This document shows, piece after piece, positions 18,204-53,992 of a stretch of DNA of 64,000 nucleotides. The stretch's first letter is position 1, and each line of letters opens with the position of its first letter. Where the stretch lies: NCBI GenBank assembly GCA_038993745.2, contig CP160629.1, forward strand, positions 744,001-808,000. Direction: 5' to 3'. Origin of the DNA: Aliivibrio fischeri (GTDB lineage Bacteria; Pseudomonadota; Gammaproteobacteria; Enterobacterales; Vibrionaceae). The notes under the pieces are model-generated. The model had not been told where the DNA came from, did no database searches, and saw only the letters and a list, made by a program, of their open reading frames with translations. Position numbers and translations under genes: made by a program.

Positions 18204-19313
18204 ATGGCAATTAGCTCAGCAAAAGACATTATTGAAGATATTCGTTTAGGTAAGATGGTTATTCTTATGGATGACGAAGATCGTGAGAATGAAGGTGATT
18301 TAATTATTGCCGCTGAGAAAATCACTCCTGAAGCCATTAACTTTATGGCAACTCATGGACGTGGTTTAATCTGTTTAACGATGACAAAAGATCGTTGTGA
18401 AAAACTAGGTCTACCTCCTATGGTACAAGACAATAATGCACAATTTACAACGAATTTTACGGTATCAATTGAAGCGGCAGAAGGCGTAACAACTGGTATT
18501 TCAGCTGCAGACCGTTCTCGCACCGTTGAAGCGGCAGTAGCCAAAAATGCAGTTGCTGCAGATTTAGTTCAACCAGGGCATATTTTCCCATTAGCAGCAC
18601 AAGAAGGCGGCGTATTAACTCGTGCTGGTCATACAGAAGCTGGGTGTGATTTAGCTCGTTTAGCTGGCTATGAGCCTGCTGGTGTGATTGTTGAAATCTT
18701 GAATGATGATGGAACAATGGCTCGTCGCCCTGATTTGGAAATTTTTGCTGAAAAACACGGCATTAAATTAGGTACGATTGCTGATTTAATTGAATATCGT
18801 AATAACAACGAAACGACAATTGAACGTGTAGCTGAGTGTAAATTACCAACAGAGTTTGGTGAGTTTGATTTGGTGACTTACCGTGACACGATTGATAATC
18901 AACTGCACTACGCTCTTAAGAAAGAAAATACGTCAAGTGAAGCGCCGTTAGTTCGTGTTCATTTACAAGATACATTTACTGATATTTTGCATTCAGACCG
19001 TTGTGCAGAACGCAGCTGGACATTGCCAACAGCAATGCAGCGTATTGCCAATGAAGGTGGTGTATTAGTGATTCTTGGTAATGAAGAATCAACAGATAGT
19101 ATCGTACATAAAGTGAAAGTTCTTGAGCGTCAAGACAGTGGTGAAGCACCAACAATGGCGAAGAAGCAAGGAACTTCACGTCGTGTAGGTGTTGGCTCTC
19201 AAATTTTGGCTGATATTGGTATTTCTGACATGCGTTTACTTTCATCAACGTCAAAGCGTTACCATGCCTTATCTGGCTTTGGTTTGAACGTTGTTGAATA
19301 CGTAACGAAATAA
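18204..19313 (+). CDS. ribBA: 3,4-dihydroxy-2-butanone-4-phosphate synthase with GTP-cyclohydrolase-II-like domain (RibBA)
   Basis: The N-terminal RibB domain (about residues 1-205) has [19 protein letters not shown] and [16 protein letters not shown], the DHBP synthase motifs. The C-terminal RibA-like domain (about 210-369) lacks the zinc-binding triple cysteine signature of GTP cyclohydrolase II: the region [26 protein letters not shown] has only one cysteine. The second domain is therefore probably inactive in cyclohydrolysis, a situation common in proteobacterial RibBX-type proteins. GTP cyclohydrolase II would come from a separate ribA elsewhere. Third rib gene of the operon. Confidence 0.9.
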
Positions 19314-49918: not shown

Positions 49919-51373
49919 TTATTTTTTAGGAATATTTTCTAAAATAGCCACCATTTGTTCCCAGTATAAAGCAACAGTATCAATTTTCACTTTCTCATCA
50001 GGAGAGTGAGGGAACTTAATAGTTGGGCCAAATGAAATCATATCCATTTCTGGATAAGGTTTCTTAAATAACCCACACTCAAGACCTGCATGAATTACCA
50101 TGATATTTGGTTTATTGCCGTAGATACCTTCATATACATCACGGAAAACGTGCATTATTTCTGAATCTGCATCAGGCTTCCAACCAGGGTAAGTGCCTGA
50201 GAAAGTGACTTGAGCGCCAGCTAGCTCAGCGACAGATGACAGCATACCTTCAACCATGCTACGGCCTGAATCCATTAATGAACGGATAAGACATAGAATA
50301 GTAATGCTATTTTCGTCAGTGGTGATCACACCAACATTTAATGATGTCTCAACTACACCTTCGATATCATCGCTCATGCGAATTACACCGTTTGGACATG
50401 CATTTAGTGTCGCAATAAAACGAGATTGAGTGATCTTTGTTAGTACTTGTTCTGCAGATGCTGTTTCGTTAAAGCTAACGATATCTGTTTCTACTTTGCC
50501 TAATTCATCTTTTAATAGGTTTGTATAGAAAGTAAATAATTCGGCTAACTTAGCTTCATTTTCGGCAGGAACTGCAATAGTAGCAAAAGCTTCACGTGGA
50601 ATTGCATTACGTAGACTACCGCCACGGAATTCAACAAGGCGTAAATCAAGCTCTTGTGCGTGACCAGCTAAAAAACGACCTAGTAGTTTGTTTGCGTTCC
50701 CACGGCCAGTATGAATATCACAACCTGAATGACCACCTTTTAAGCCTTTTAGTGTGATTTGTCGAGTGATGTAACCAGAAGGAAGAGCTTCACGTTCAAT
50801 GTCTAATTTGATAGCACCATCGGCACCACCAGCACAACCCATGTAAACTTCGCCTTCTTGCTCTGAATCTGTGTTTAAAAGGATATCACCTTCTAACCAT
50901 CCAGCTTCCAGACCAAAAGCTCCTGTCATACCTGCTTCTTCATCGATAGTTAATAATACTTCTAGAGGGCCGTGTTTTAGCTCTTTTGATGCTAACACTG
51001 CAAGACAAGATGCCATACCCATGCCGTTATCAGCACCAAGCGTCGTTCCTTTTGCCGTTACCCACTCACCATCAATGTATGGTTGAATTGGATCTTTAGT
51101 GAAGTCGTGCTCTGTATCTTCATTTTTTTGTGGAACCATATCGATATGAGCTTGTAGAACTACGCCTTTGCGATCTTCCATGCCTGGTGTTGCTGGCTTT
51201 TTAATAAAAACGTTACCAGTAGGATCACGGCGCACATCTAGACCTTCAGTTGTTGCCCATTCAATAATGTATTGAGCCAATGCTTCTTCATGTTTTGAAG
51301 GGTGAGGAATAGAACAGATTTTGTCAAAAAATTGCCAAAGAGGTTGAGGGGTTAGTTGACTGATCTCAGACAC
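49919..51373 (-). CDS. pepD: Aminoacyl-histidine dipeptidase (PepD, M20 family)
   Basis: Cytoplasmic zinc dipeptidase (carnosinase-like) with broad Xaa-His specificity; 484 residues. Metal and catalytic motifs: VVLQAHIDMVPQ, GTTLGADNGMGMA and LLTIDEEAGMTGAFGLE. The first contributes the His and Asp, the second a bridging Asp, the third the catalytic Glu pair. C-terminal IHAGLECG carries another ligand region. RBS AAGGAGAATC upstream. Its upstream side is the 830-bp regulatory interval. Confidence 0.95.
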   Translation of the reverse strand: MSEISQLTPQPLWQFFDKICSIPHPSKHEEALAQYIIEWATTEGLDVRRDPTGNVFIKKPATPGMEDRKGVVLQAHIDMVPQKNEDTEHDFTKDPIQPYIDGEWVTAKGTTLGADNGMGMASCLAVLASKELKHGPLEVLLTIDEEAGMTGAFGLEAGWLEGDILLNTDSEQEGEVYMGCAGGADGAIKLDIEREALPSGYITRQITLKGLKGGHSGCDIHTGRGNANKLLGRFLAGHAQELDLRLVEFRGGSLRNAIPREAFATIAVPAENEAKLAELFTFYTNLLKDELGKVETDIVSFNETASAEQVLTKITQSRFIATLNACPNGVIRMSDDIEGVVETSLNVGVITTDENSITILCLIRSLMDSGRSMVEGMLSSVAELAGAQVTFSGTYPGWKPDADSEIMHVFRDVYEGIYGNKPNIMVIHAGLECGLFKKPYPEMDMISFGPTIKFPHSPDEKVKIDTVALYWEQMVAILENIPKK

Positions 51374-51545
51374 AAGATTCTCCTTTATGAAAACGGTTTT
51401 TACTTATTAATGCTCTAATTATTTGAGTCATTGTTTGTTAATACAATTCAGTATACCTCTGAATCTAGCGAATTACTCTGTTTGATATTCTAAATGGAAA
51501 AACAATTTAAAATGATGAAATGACAGACGATTAAATGAGCAGTAT

Positions 51546-51561
51546 TCGCAAACGGTTTCGT
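51546..51561. promoter_or_regulatory. PurR-type operator in the pepD / leader RNA interval
   Basis: TCGCAAACGGTTTCGT matches the PurR box ACGCAAACGKTTNCGT at all but the first base. A TATAGT at 51581-51586 would have its -35 (TCGTAA, 51558-51563) overlapping the box, so PurR binding would block transcription into the leader region. The link to PurR is inferred. Confidence 0.65.
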
Positions 51562-51632
51562 AATAAAATTACACCATTAGTATAGTCAATAAGCTATTTT
51601 CTGTTTTTTATGTGAGGTTCGTCATGTTTTTG

Positions 51633-51660
51633 TTGTAATTTAATTTCCTGATGGTATAGT
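51633..51660 (+). promoter_or_regulatory. Candidate promoter for the leader RNA
   Basis: TTGTAA (51633-51638), 16 bases, TATAGT (51655-51660). Transcription would start about seven bases later, at the 5' edge of the foldable region. A second TATAGT at 51581-51586 is an alternative. Confidence 0.5.
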
Positions 51661-51777
51661 GATCTCATCTGCTGATAAGGCAGAAAAAAATGCTCATAGG
51701 ATGAGTCCGATTTATCGCCTCCAAGGAACCGAGATCAATTTAAAATGTTAAAAACTATCAATTGATAAGGTGATGTT

Positions 51778-51864
51778 ATGTCTTTTTTAAGTTCTTCAAA
51801 ATTCTGGAATCAACGCTCTGTATACACAAGTCAATTTGTGTACCCAATGTGCTTTGGTTACTAA
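51778..51864 (+). CDS. 28-residue aromatic-rich small ORF (candidate leader peptide)
   Basis: Starts at ATG 51778 with AAGG seven bases upstream. The peptide begins MSFLSSSKFWNQRSVYTSQF and ends VYPMCFGY. Eight of 28 residues are aromatic (four Phe, one Trp, three Tyr) counting conservatively. A hairpin lies inside the frame (51823-51842) and another covers the stop codon (51864-51881), with a strong terminator 78 bases downstream: the layout of translation-dependent attenuators. I do not recognise the peptide. Translation is inferred from the RBS and layout only. Confidence 0.45.
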   Translation: MSFLSSSKFWNQRSVYTSQFVYPMCFGY

Positions 51865-51942
51865 TAAAACTTCGGTTTTATACGTTAAAGTAATACCCCT
51901 ATAATTGGAATTCTATTCTACCCTTATGGGCAGTTAATTCTC

Positions 51943-51977
51943 CGCCATTCAAAACTATTTTGGATGGCGTTTTTTTT
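51943..51977 (+). terminator. Strong intrinsic terminator of the leader RNA
   Basis: Left arm CGCCATTCAAAA (51943-51954), loop CTA, right arm TTTTGGATGGCG (51958-51969), then eight T. One G-U pair, otherwise perfect. No annotated gene ends upstream of it on this strand, so it must terminate the leader transcript. Confidence 0.9.
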
Positions 51978-52159
51978 ATCTAAAAAATATTAATCACTTC
52001 TACACTCTTTTTATTTCTCATTCTAACTAATTGAATCATTAGATTAATTTCATGATCGTAAGATTAGTGCATTCACTTTATTTACTGTTTGCTTATTAAA
52101 AGGGCAACTATCGCTAGAAATTAGCATAATTCCACTTTATAATTCTCAGCCAATCGATT

Positions 52160-52175
52160 ACGCAAACGTTTAGAT
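52160..52175. promoter_or_regulatory. PurR-type operator upstream of the purine permease
   Basis: ACGCAAACGTTTAGAT matches the PurR box ACGCAAACGTTTTCGT at 13 of 16 positions, with the left half and centre perfect. It lies 28 bp before the permease ATG and just downstream of TATAAT (52138-52143), so it could act as operator or roadblock. Confidence 0.7.
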
Positions 52176-52203
52176 TGCATAAATTCACTAGGAAATTACT
52201 CTA

Positions 52204-53496
52204 ATGCTTGAGAAATTATTTCAACTAAAAGCTAATGGTACGACTGTTCGTACTGAAGTTATAGCTGGTATAACCACGTTTTTAACCATGGCTTATGTTA
52301 TTTTCGTTAATCCAGCTATTTTGGCGGATGCGGGAATGGATAAAGGGGCTGTATTTGTCGCAACTTGTATTGCAGCAGCTATTGGCTGTTTCATTATGGG
52401 GTTCGTTGCAAACTTCCCGATAGCTCAAGCTCCAGGTATGGGATTGAATGCCTTTTTTACTTATACCGTTGTTTTAGGTATGGGTCATACATGGCAAGTC
52501 GCTCTTGCTGCAGTATTTATGTCAGGGGTTTTATTTATTCTTCTTAGCTTATTTAAGATTAGAGAATTAATTATTAACTCAATTCCTCTTTCACTAAGAA
52601 CGGGCATTTCTGCTGGTATTGGTTTATTTCTGGCATTTATTGCACTAAAAAATTCAGGGATTGTTGTTGATAACCCAGCGACATTGGTTTCAATGGGCCA
52701 CATTAACAGTTTTCCTGCTGTTATGGGGGCACTCGCTTTCTTTTTAACAATTGCTTTAGTGCATCGTGGCTATAAAGCTGCTGTTATGATTGCTATTTTG
52801 GCTGTAACTGCACTGTCATTGCTTTTTGGTGATGTTCAGTATGCTGGTGTAATGTCAATGCCGCCAAGTATCGCACCTACCTTTTTACAATTAGACTTTT
52901 CTAGTGCGTTTGAACTAAGCATGCTAACCGTTGTATTTGCATTCTTATTCGTCGATTTATTTGATACAGCGGGCACTTTAGTTGGCGTATCACAGAAAGC
53001 GGGGATTATGGACAAAGACGGTAATATCCCTCGTTTAAATAAAGCGCTACTTGCTGATTCAACAGCGACATCAGTTGGTGCTTTATTGGGTACTTCAAAT
53101 ACGACATCGTATATTGAAAGTGTTGCAGGGGTAGCTGCGGGTGGTCGAACAGGTTTGACGGCTGTTGTTGTTGGTATTCTGTTCTTACTTGCATTGTTCT
53201 TTGCTCCATTAGCGGGTATGGTTCCGGCCTACGCAACGGCTGGAGCTTTGTTCTATGTCGCGATTTTGATGATGTCTGGTCTTGTTAGCATTGATTGGCG
53301 AGATCTTACTGAAGCAGCACCAGTTGTTGTGGTATGCTTATTAATGCCGTTAACCTTTTCTATTGCGGATGGTATTTCATTAGGCTTTATTTCTTACGCT
53401 GCAATTAAGTTGCTTAGTGGTAAAGGTCGTGAAGTTCACATCAGTGTTTGGGTTCTAGCTGCATTATTCACGCTGAAATTTATTTTTACGGCATAG
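52204..53496 (+). CDS. Adenine/guanine/hypoxanthine permease (AzgA/GhxP type, NCS2-like)
   Basis: 430-residue inner-membrane purine-base permease of COG2252. About 13 hydrophobic segments. Family motifs: TEVIAGITTFLTMAYVIFVNPAILADAGM at the N-terminus, APGMGLNAFFTYT in the substrate region, and the VDLFDTAGTLVGVSQKAG segment with TTSYIESVAGVAAGGRTGLT. Exact base specificity cannot be read from sequence; partnership with gpt suggests guanine/xanthine/hypoxanthine. A PurR-type box precedes the gene; gpt follows after 37 bases, probably in one operon for uptake and salvage. Confidence 0.9.
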   Translation: MLEKLFQLKANGTTVRTEVIAGITTFLTMAYVIFVNPAILADAGMDKGAVFVATCIAAAIGCFIMGFVANFPIAQAPGMGLNAFFTYTVVLGMGHTWQVALAAVFMSGVLFILLSLFKIRELIINSIPLSLRTGISAGIGLFLAFIALKNSGIVVDNPATLVSMGHINSFPAVMGALAFFLTIALVHRGYKAAVMIAILAVTALSLLFGDVQYAGVMSMPPSIAPTFLQLDFSSAFELSMLTVVFAFLFVDLFDTAGTLVGVSQKAGIMDKDGNIPRLNKALLADSTATSVGALLGTSNTTSYIESVAGVAAGGRTGLTAVVVGILFLLALFFAPLAGMVPAYATAGALFYVAILMMSGLVSIDWRDLTEAAPVVVVCLLMPLTFSIADGISLGFISYAAIKLLSGKGREVHISVWVLAALFTLKFIFTA

Positions 53497-53533
53497 TCGT
53501 TGATGACTGTGTCACTTAGAGGTTTTGTCAATT

Positions 53534-53992
53534 ATGGCTAATAAATTTGTAATCACTTGGGATAACATGCAGATGTATACTCGTCAGCTTGCTGAACAGT
53601 TACTTCCTGCCGATCAATGGAAAGGTATTTTGGCTGTGAGCCGTGGTGGTTTAGTTCCTGCTGCAATCTTGGCTCGTGAGTTAAATATTCGTCATGTTGA
53701 TACAGTATGTATCTCAAGCTATGACCATGATCATCAGCGTGATATGACGGTTGTTAAAGCGATGGAAGGTGATGGTGAAGGTTTCATCATCATTGATGAT
53801 CTAGTAGATAGCGGTGATACTGCGGTTAAATTACGTGAAATGTACCCTAAAGGTAAATTAGTAACGGTATGTGCTAAACCTGCAGGCGTTCATCTAGTAG
53901 ACGCTTATGTTGTAGATATCCCACAAGATACATGGATTGAACAACCTTGGGATATGGCGGTAACTTACGTCGATCCTATTGCTAAAAAATAA
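53534..53992 (+). CDS. gpt: Xanthine-guanine phosphoribosyltransferase
   Basis: Transfers phosphoribosyl from PRPP to guanine, xanthine and hypoxanthine; 152 residues, exactly the E. coli length, from ATG 53534 ([23 protein letters not shown]). The PRPP-binding motif is [14 protein letters not shown], and the flexible-loop region reads [10 protein letters not shown]. It is downstream of the purine permease and followed by a terminator, making a compact import-and-capture module. Confidence 0.96.

Follow-up and report, generated by a model that had tools for sequence, protein, structure and literature searches.

The vcdRP interval between pepD and the permease gene

The window analysed here, a stretch of 64,000 nucleotides from Aliivibrio fischeri, carries pepD on the minus strand (49922-51373) and a purine permease gene (52204-53496) as the left and right neighbours of an interval holding one transcription unit on the plus strand. 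The promoter of this unit consists of a -35 element TTGTAA (51633-51638) and a -10 element TATAGT (51655-51660, plus strand), and the transcription start was placed near 51667 from its spacing to the -10. Downstream of a leader follow an open reading frame of 28 amino acids, MSFLSSSKFWNQRSVYTSQFVYPMCFGY (51778-51864), with its Shine-Dalgarno sequence AAGGTGAT (51767-51774), the seed AUACCCC (51893-51899) and an intrinsic terminator with a 12-bp stem and a T run (51943-51977), all on the plus strand. In the predicted RNA the ORF starts at nucleotide 112, the CCCC occupies nucleotides 229-232 and the end lies at about 311.

The V. cholerae genes vc2279 and vc2278 we take to be pepD and the permease gene. 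Between these two genes lies vcdRP (Vcr082), which encodes a dual-function RNA of 306 nt whose ORF spans 104-193 and which has four Cs within a conserved stretch at 223-232 and ends in an intrinsic terminator (PMC8672173, available text). Comparison of the two units reveals the same locus, a similar length, the same order of leader, ORF, CCCC and terminator, and a CRP-type site in both, the small protein VcdP having 28 residues in Aliivibrio versus 29 in V. cholerae. The same gene was found at the same locus in V. harveyi (L033), V. splendidus (L071) and V. anguillarum (L077), three species of the alignment published there; V. cholerae's own locus was not identified among the genomes compared. 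The region is present throughout the genus (14 of 14 genomes). Across the Vibrionaceae, the permease lies downstream of pepD within the stretch in 79 of 80 pepD loci, 75 of these 79 having a VcdP-like ORF between the two genes. We conclude that the pepD-permease gap of Aliivibrio almost certainly holds the counterpart of vcdRP, in agreement with the last of the alternatives offered in a preliminary description of this DNA, a small-protein-encoding RNA. At one locus, in Vibrio sp. Of7-15 (L040), about 2 kb of extra DNA, including a chemoreceptor-like gene on the other strand, separates pepD from vcdRP.

The vcdP frame is under coding selection, with a pN/pS of 0.20 among nine distinct Aliivibrio coding sequences and 0.37 among 46 distinct Vibrio ones. 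The VcdP of the window matches a VcdP HMM that includes its own sequence with an E-value of 3.9e-20. A Pfam search of VcdP gave no match, and the sole PDB match had an E-value of 0.46. The 28-codon ORF with a good ribosome-binding site, as the preliminary description had it, and the near-perfect terminator were both confirmed, terminator-like sites numbering 8 in the 2.8-kb region versus 2.3 in shuffles. The hairpins that it had placed within the ORF and at the stop codon were not seen on reading the Vibrio sequences, and the whole predicted RNA is only mildly stabler than shuffles (z -1.41; 5/100). Two other frames were rejected: a five-codon upstream ORF in the leader (AUG CUC AAA GGA UGA), of which several relatives have lost the start or the frame, and a longer frame starting at AUGAGU, which shifts among species.

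In V. cholerae, where the four-C seed has been demonstrated, VcdR represses the ptsG, nagE, treB and ptsHI mRNAs, and VcdP binds and activates citrate synthase (PMC8672173). Pairing of the Aliivibrio seed was tested at 12 translation starts, those of 7 PTS genes and 5 others. The ptsH Shine-Dalgarno sequence GGGGTAT is a perfect 7-nt complement of AUACCCC, and TTATAGGGG of nagE is complementary to CCCCUAUAA, perfectly over 9 nt; the duplex energies are moderate, 7.7% (ptsH) and 8.7% (nagE) of shuffles being as good. Pairing of ptsG with the seed is weak, and treB was not found among the six EIIB genes. A citrate synthase gene is present in the genome (TIGR01798, 785.9 bits). By analogy, Aliivibrio vcdRP likely acts as in V. 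cholerae, blocking sugar uptake and boosting citrate synthase. As described in the same source, SgrST of enteric bacteria is likewise a dual-function RNA, combining repression of PTS mRNAs with a small protein encoded 5' of the seed, but differs in that SgrT blocks PtsG and SgrR is the activator.

Promoter boxes and leader RNA

Two HexR-type boxes, 75 bp apart, flank a CRP-type site, no strand being assigned to any of the three. The predicted distal box, CGTAATAAAATTACA (51559-51573), has one mismatch to TGTAATNNNATTACA; the CRP-type site, TGTGAGGTTCGTCATG (51611-51626), has two mismatches to TGTGAN6TCACA; and the predicted proximal box, TGTAATTTAATTTCC (51634-51648), has two mismatches and lies over the -35. 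Examination of 153 loci yielded the strict leader pattern in 145, corresponding to 115 distinct promoters. The distal box, of the form TGTAATTWAATTACA, has no mismatch in 55 of the 115, one in 45, two in nine and three or more in six (L014, L063, L155, L161, L171 and L182). The proximal box has one mismatch in 14, two in 52, three in 45 and more in four. The two boxes are 72-76 bp apart in 102 of the 109 promoters with usable boxes. The remaining spacings are 63 (two promoters), 52 (two) and 94 (one), plus two automatic picks that changed on reading the sequences, since the pick at L008 was tied with a box at the usual place and the true spacing at L164 is 63; at L171 the spacing is 53. The best CRP-type site has two or fewer mismatches in 106 of the 115 promoters (null about 8%), but in 22 of 44 loci negative for the leader (null 14%). 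CRP represses vcdRP in V. cholerae through a site upstream of the -35 (PMC8672173). Of the promoter elements proposed in the preliminary description, the support lies in their conservation and not in the number of matches, promoter-like matches amounting to 5 versus 8.4 expected by chance.

The genome encodes HexR (NF008451, 548.5 bits, cut-off 296). The HexR site of V. parahaemolyticus glgX, AGTAATTAAATTACA, has the same form as the boxes described here (PMC11906056, available text). The HexR-controlled genes of Vibrionales resemble vcdRP in box sequence and in their role in central carbon metabolism, but differ in that a small RNA is not named as a target in the available texts of PMC11906056 and PMC5343134. 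No paper treating VcdRP and HexR together was found in the open-licence PMC literature. One of the genome's two perfect HexR-type boxes (L096; G000 C1:976376-976390) lies at a distance of about 4 kb from the hexR gene and precedes, by 81 bp, an ORF for a membrane protein that has no NCBIfam name.

The leader, on the plus strand, has a 5' hairpin CTGC..GCAG (51669-51683), which is CTTC..GAAG in most Vibrio. It is followed by the hairpin GCUCA-UAGGA-UGAGU (51692-51706), with a GGA in the loop as predicted CsrA site 1, and by AUCGCCUCCAAGGAACCGAG (51714-51733), which comprises a stretch complementary to the vcdP Shine-Dalgarno sequence and an ANGGA, the predicted CsrA site 2. The GGA-loop hairpin is found in all 111 distinct contexts, including six from outside Vibrionaceae, with a fixed stem pattern, and in 105 of 105 by a freer search. 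It has a 4-bp stem and a loop of 5-8 nt. Within the 111 contexts, the first pair is G-U in 86 and G-C in 25, the second C-G in 98, U-A in 10 and U-G in three, the third always U-A, and the fourth C-G in 109 and U-A in two, so that the second and fourth pairs show compensatory changes. In the 53-sequence alignment A1, the two-sided changed cells exceed those of 500 of 500 shuffles, the other four measures of covariation being unremarkable. A further stem, AUCAAUU (51734-51740) with AAUUGAU (51760-51766), spans 51734-51766 and is unreliably aligned; it was misaligned in A1, with 60.7% of cells paired, and the model R1 was built without it.

The motif CGCCUCCANGGAACYGAG lies 3' of the hairpin in 145 of the 153 loci, which were chosen by a pattern that includes it. 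The eight loci off the pattern are L058, L092, L094 and L095, in which VcdP is lost or broken, and L173 and L178-L180, which are weak model matches. AUCGCCU may pair with the vcdP Shine-Dalgarno sequence, with a mean probability of 0.40 over 90 leaders; this helix scarcely varies in sequence, and we keep it only as a possibility. The genome contains csrA, and CsrA sites have been described as GGA in hairpin loops (PMC7858070, available text). As a predicted CsrA target, the vcdRP leader resembles the CsrA-bound leaders described there in having a GGA in a hairpin loop and a second GGA nearby. Vcr082 does not appear in the available main text of that paper, and VcdRP and CsrA were found together in the open-licence PMC literature, as far as its available texts go, only in work on Rickettsia.

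Alternative readings of the interval, promoter and leader

The preliminary description compared the layout to that of an attenuator or a riboswitch with a leader peptide. A purine riboswitch or leader-peptide attenuator for the permease and gpt would agree with the position of the interval, upstream of a purine permease and between two PurR-type boxes, both of which were matched as described, at 51546-51561 (no strand assigned; overlapping the distal HexR-type box) and at 52160-52175 (plus strand), and with the attenuator-like order of ORF, hairpins and terminator. However, the vcdRP terminator closes the gene's own transcript, and the permease has a promoter of its own, outside vcdRP: between the terminator and the permease lie a -10 element TATAAT (52138-52143, plus strand) and the second PurR-type box, both of them in 76 of 78 loci and the box on its own in 77 (L090 and L072, for which no permease start was found, were left out of this count). 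The 5' fold proposed to be closed by GATCTC/GAGATC does not stand either, as GATCTC (51661-51666) comes after the -10 element and before the predicted start, which puts the closing stem outside the predicted RNA, and Vibrio does not retain the helix; the isolated 91-nt 5' stretch does, however, fold better than its shuffled versions (z -2.59; 2/200). A covariance search of the interval against Rfam gave no match at the gathering score. In addition, the V. cholerae homologue acts in trans (PMC8672173), and relatives carry the gene away from the permease; in g14, a genus outside Vibrionaceae, the leader and a VcdP-like ORF stand beside other genes. Because the interval is a known dual-function sRNA gene with these properties, we consider the riboswitch or attenuator reading very unlikely. 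PurR control of vcdRP itself was also rejected, since the first PurR-type box, present in 8 of 14 distinct Aliivibrio promoters versus 3 of 101 others, is rare outside Aliivibrio. The sole Rfam match of the window is V_AS9 (RF02820, 63.4 bits) on the minus strand at 18301-18404. The gpt gene (53525-53992, plus strand) matches the xanthine phosphoribosyltransferase model NF006613 with 247.9 bits (cut-off 138) and, below cut-off, the Tet(34) model (278.6 of 345 bits).

Within vcdRP, the TGTAAT-type boxes might be read by a regulator other than HexR, or be merely AT-rich promoter sequence. The motif is indeed AT-rich, the proximal box is imperfect, and the HexR pattern with at most one mismatch occurs at 25 sites genome-wide versus 24 for a reversed control, which makes the count alone uninformative. 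Such an origin is hard to reconcile with a distal box of at most one mismatch in 100 of the 115 distinct promoters versus 0.3% in Markov shuffles, or with the retention of a box of at most one mismatch in 34 of the 44 leader-negative loci, which are devoid of intact VcdP (null 0.5%). The spacing classes 52, 63, 63 and 94 are also within 1 bp of whole helical turns from 74 (P 0.005, the classes being chosen post hoc). Among 20 of the 25 genomic sites that were examined, 8 are inside genes and 12 intergenic, one of the latter being that of vcdRP, and 6 of the other 11 intergenic sites precede genes of central carbon metabolism (adhE, gpmM, ppc, ptsH, malate synthase A and cydA). We regard the reading by another regulator or as AT-rich sequence as improbable, and predict with good confidence that HexR controls vcdRP. 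For the leader, the competing explanation is an entry site for Hfq or RNase E, or an enhancer or masker of vcdP translation. The V. cholerae RNA is bound by Hfq and cut by RNase E (PMC8672173), and AUCGCCU is able to mask the Shine-Dalgarno sequence. Against this, the GGA stays in the loop while loop length and stem letters vary, any of the four letters can stand at N in ANGGA (A 82, T 12, G 8 and C 3 of 105), as described for CsrA sites (PMC7858070), and the leader accompanies VcdP and not the sRNA part. A leader of this other kind is a possibility of some weight, though we lean towards the prediction that CsrA controls VcdP translation through the leader. For the combined reading, in which vcdRP carries VcdP and a PTS-blocking seed, is likely repressed by CRP and HexR and has VcdP under predicted CsrA control, we estimate a probability of roughly 85%.

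Separability of VcdP and VcdR and a proposed mechanism

The leader model matches 251 of 329 Vibrionaceae genomes, in 9 of 13 genera. A VcdP-like ORF accompanies the leader at all 145 strict-leader loci, at E 1e-3 in 144 and more weakly at L176. Forty-six of the 78 genomes negative for the leader were examined, and pepD was found in 44; none of these 44 pepD loci contains an intact VcdP by HMM. L194 retains a decayed VcdP remnant (E 1e-4), and the hits at L219 and L225 (E 0.04), far downstream, are probably due to chance. Without intact VcdP, 35 of the 44 loci, in Vibrio, keep a HexR-type box (two or fewer mismatches), CCCC and terminator, while five have only the box and four neither, the seed being counted by a loose rule, under which a CCCC situated 25-190 nt ahead of a folded terminator qualifies and the CCCC picked automatically sometimes differs from the likely seed. 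An intermediate state is seen in V. tetraodonis (L092), which has an in-frame stop in vcdP, an altered leader and an intact seed.

The opposite separation was also found. At L156, L157 and L161 leader and VcdP are followed by a terminator with no CCCC before it, and CCCC is also missing from L155, which forms the first part of a tandem copy. Outside Vibrionaceae, 13 leader matches were obtained among 295 order-sampled genomes, 11 in g14 and two in the genus g23. Both loci of g23 are situated between pepD and gpt and have VcdP and a C-rich stretch without CCCC. The four g14 loci read, out of 11, contain a VcdP-like ORF and neither CCCC nor a HexR-type box, so that seedless loci with leader and VcdP-like ORF include four outside Vibrionaceae; three g14 ORFs, scored within a set of seven, gave E-values of 4e-4 to 4e-3. 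A PepD tree of 111 loci, 34 of them without VcdP, gives at least five changes of VcdP presence, of which the strongly supported branches force only one. Copy number varies at some loci: in genome G287 (C1:732868-733222), L155 and L182 form a tandem duplication of leader and VcdP whose first unit is without seed and terminator, and two genomes have two vcdRP-like copies each (L156/L181 in G058, L157/L183 in G079), one of each pair being seedless.

In PMC8672173, as far as its available text goes, ORF and seed are conserved together in all species tested. In the wider sample each is found without the other, and the two functions can therefore be compared in natural variants. Judged by these sequences, the functions of VcdP and VcdR are separable. 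A further reading, which we hold as tentative, at somewhat less than even odds, is that two separately inherited genes are joined here, a VcdP micro-gene with a CsrA-gated leader and a HexR-driven VcdR, CsrA setting their ratio. If so, VcdP with its leader could exist on its own, also in a different bacterial family, the VcdR sRNA would survive the loss of VcdP, and in the fused form CsrA would set citrate synthase activation against the block of sugar uptake.

We propose the following mechanism. The predicted 311-nt RNA would yield VcdP from its 5' half, and the ACCCC seed in its 3' half would block PTS sugar-uptake mRNAs. At low sugar flux, cAMP-CRP and likely HexR, whose effector is KDPG, would hold vcdRP off, HexR sitting, as we infer, on the distal box and the -35 box, which face nearly the same side of the helix. 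Sugar entry and flux would release HexR and CRP and turn vcdRP on, with reduced PTS synthesis as the expected effect of VcdR and a flow of carbon into the citric acid cycle as that of VcdP. Binding of a CsrA dimer to both GGA sites might shift the pairing of AUCGCCU with the Shine-Dalgarno sequence, setting the amount of VcdP made per VcdR.

Three results go beyond the V. cholerae account: the available text of PMC8672173, which mentions neither HexR nor CsrA, does not contain the HexR-type boxes, the GGA-loop leader or the occurrence in nature of VcdP and VcdR without each other. An apparent orphan riboswitch thus becomes the counterpart of a studied dual-function RNA, with HexR (sugar flux) and CsrA gained as testable inputs. 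A leader linked to VcdP would explain how a cell could adjust the small protein independently of the sRNA.
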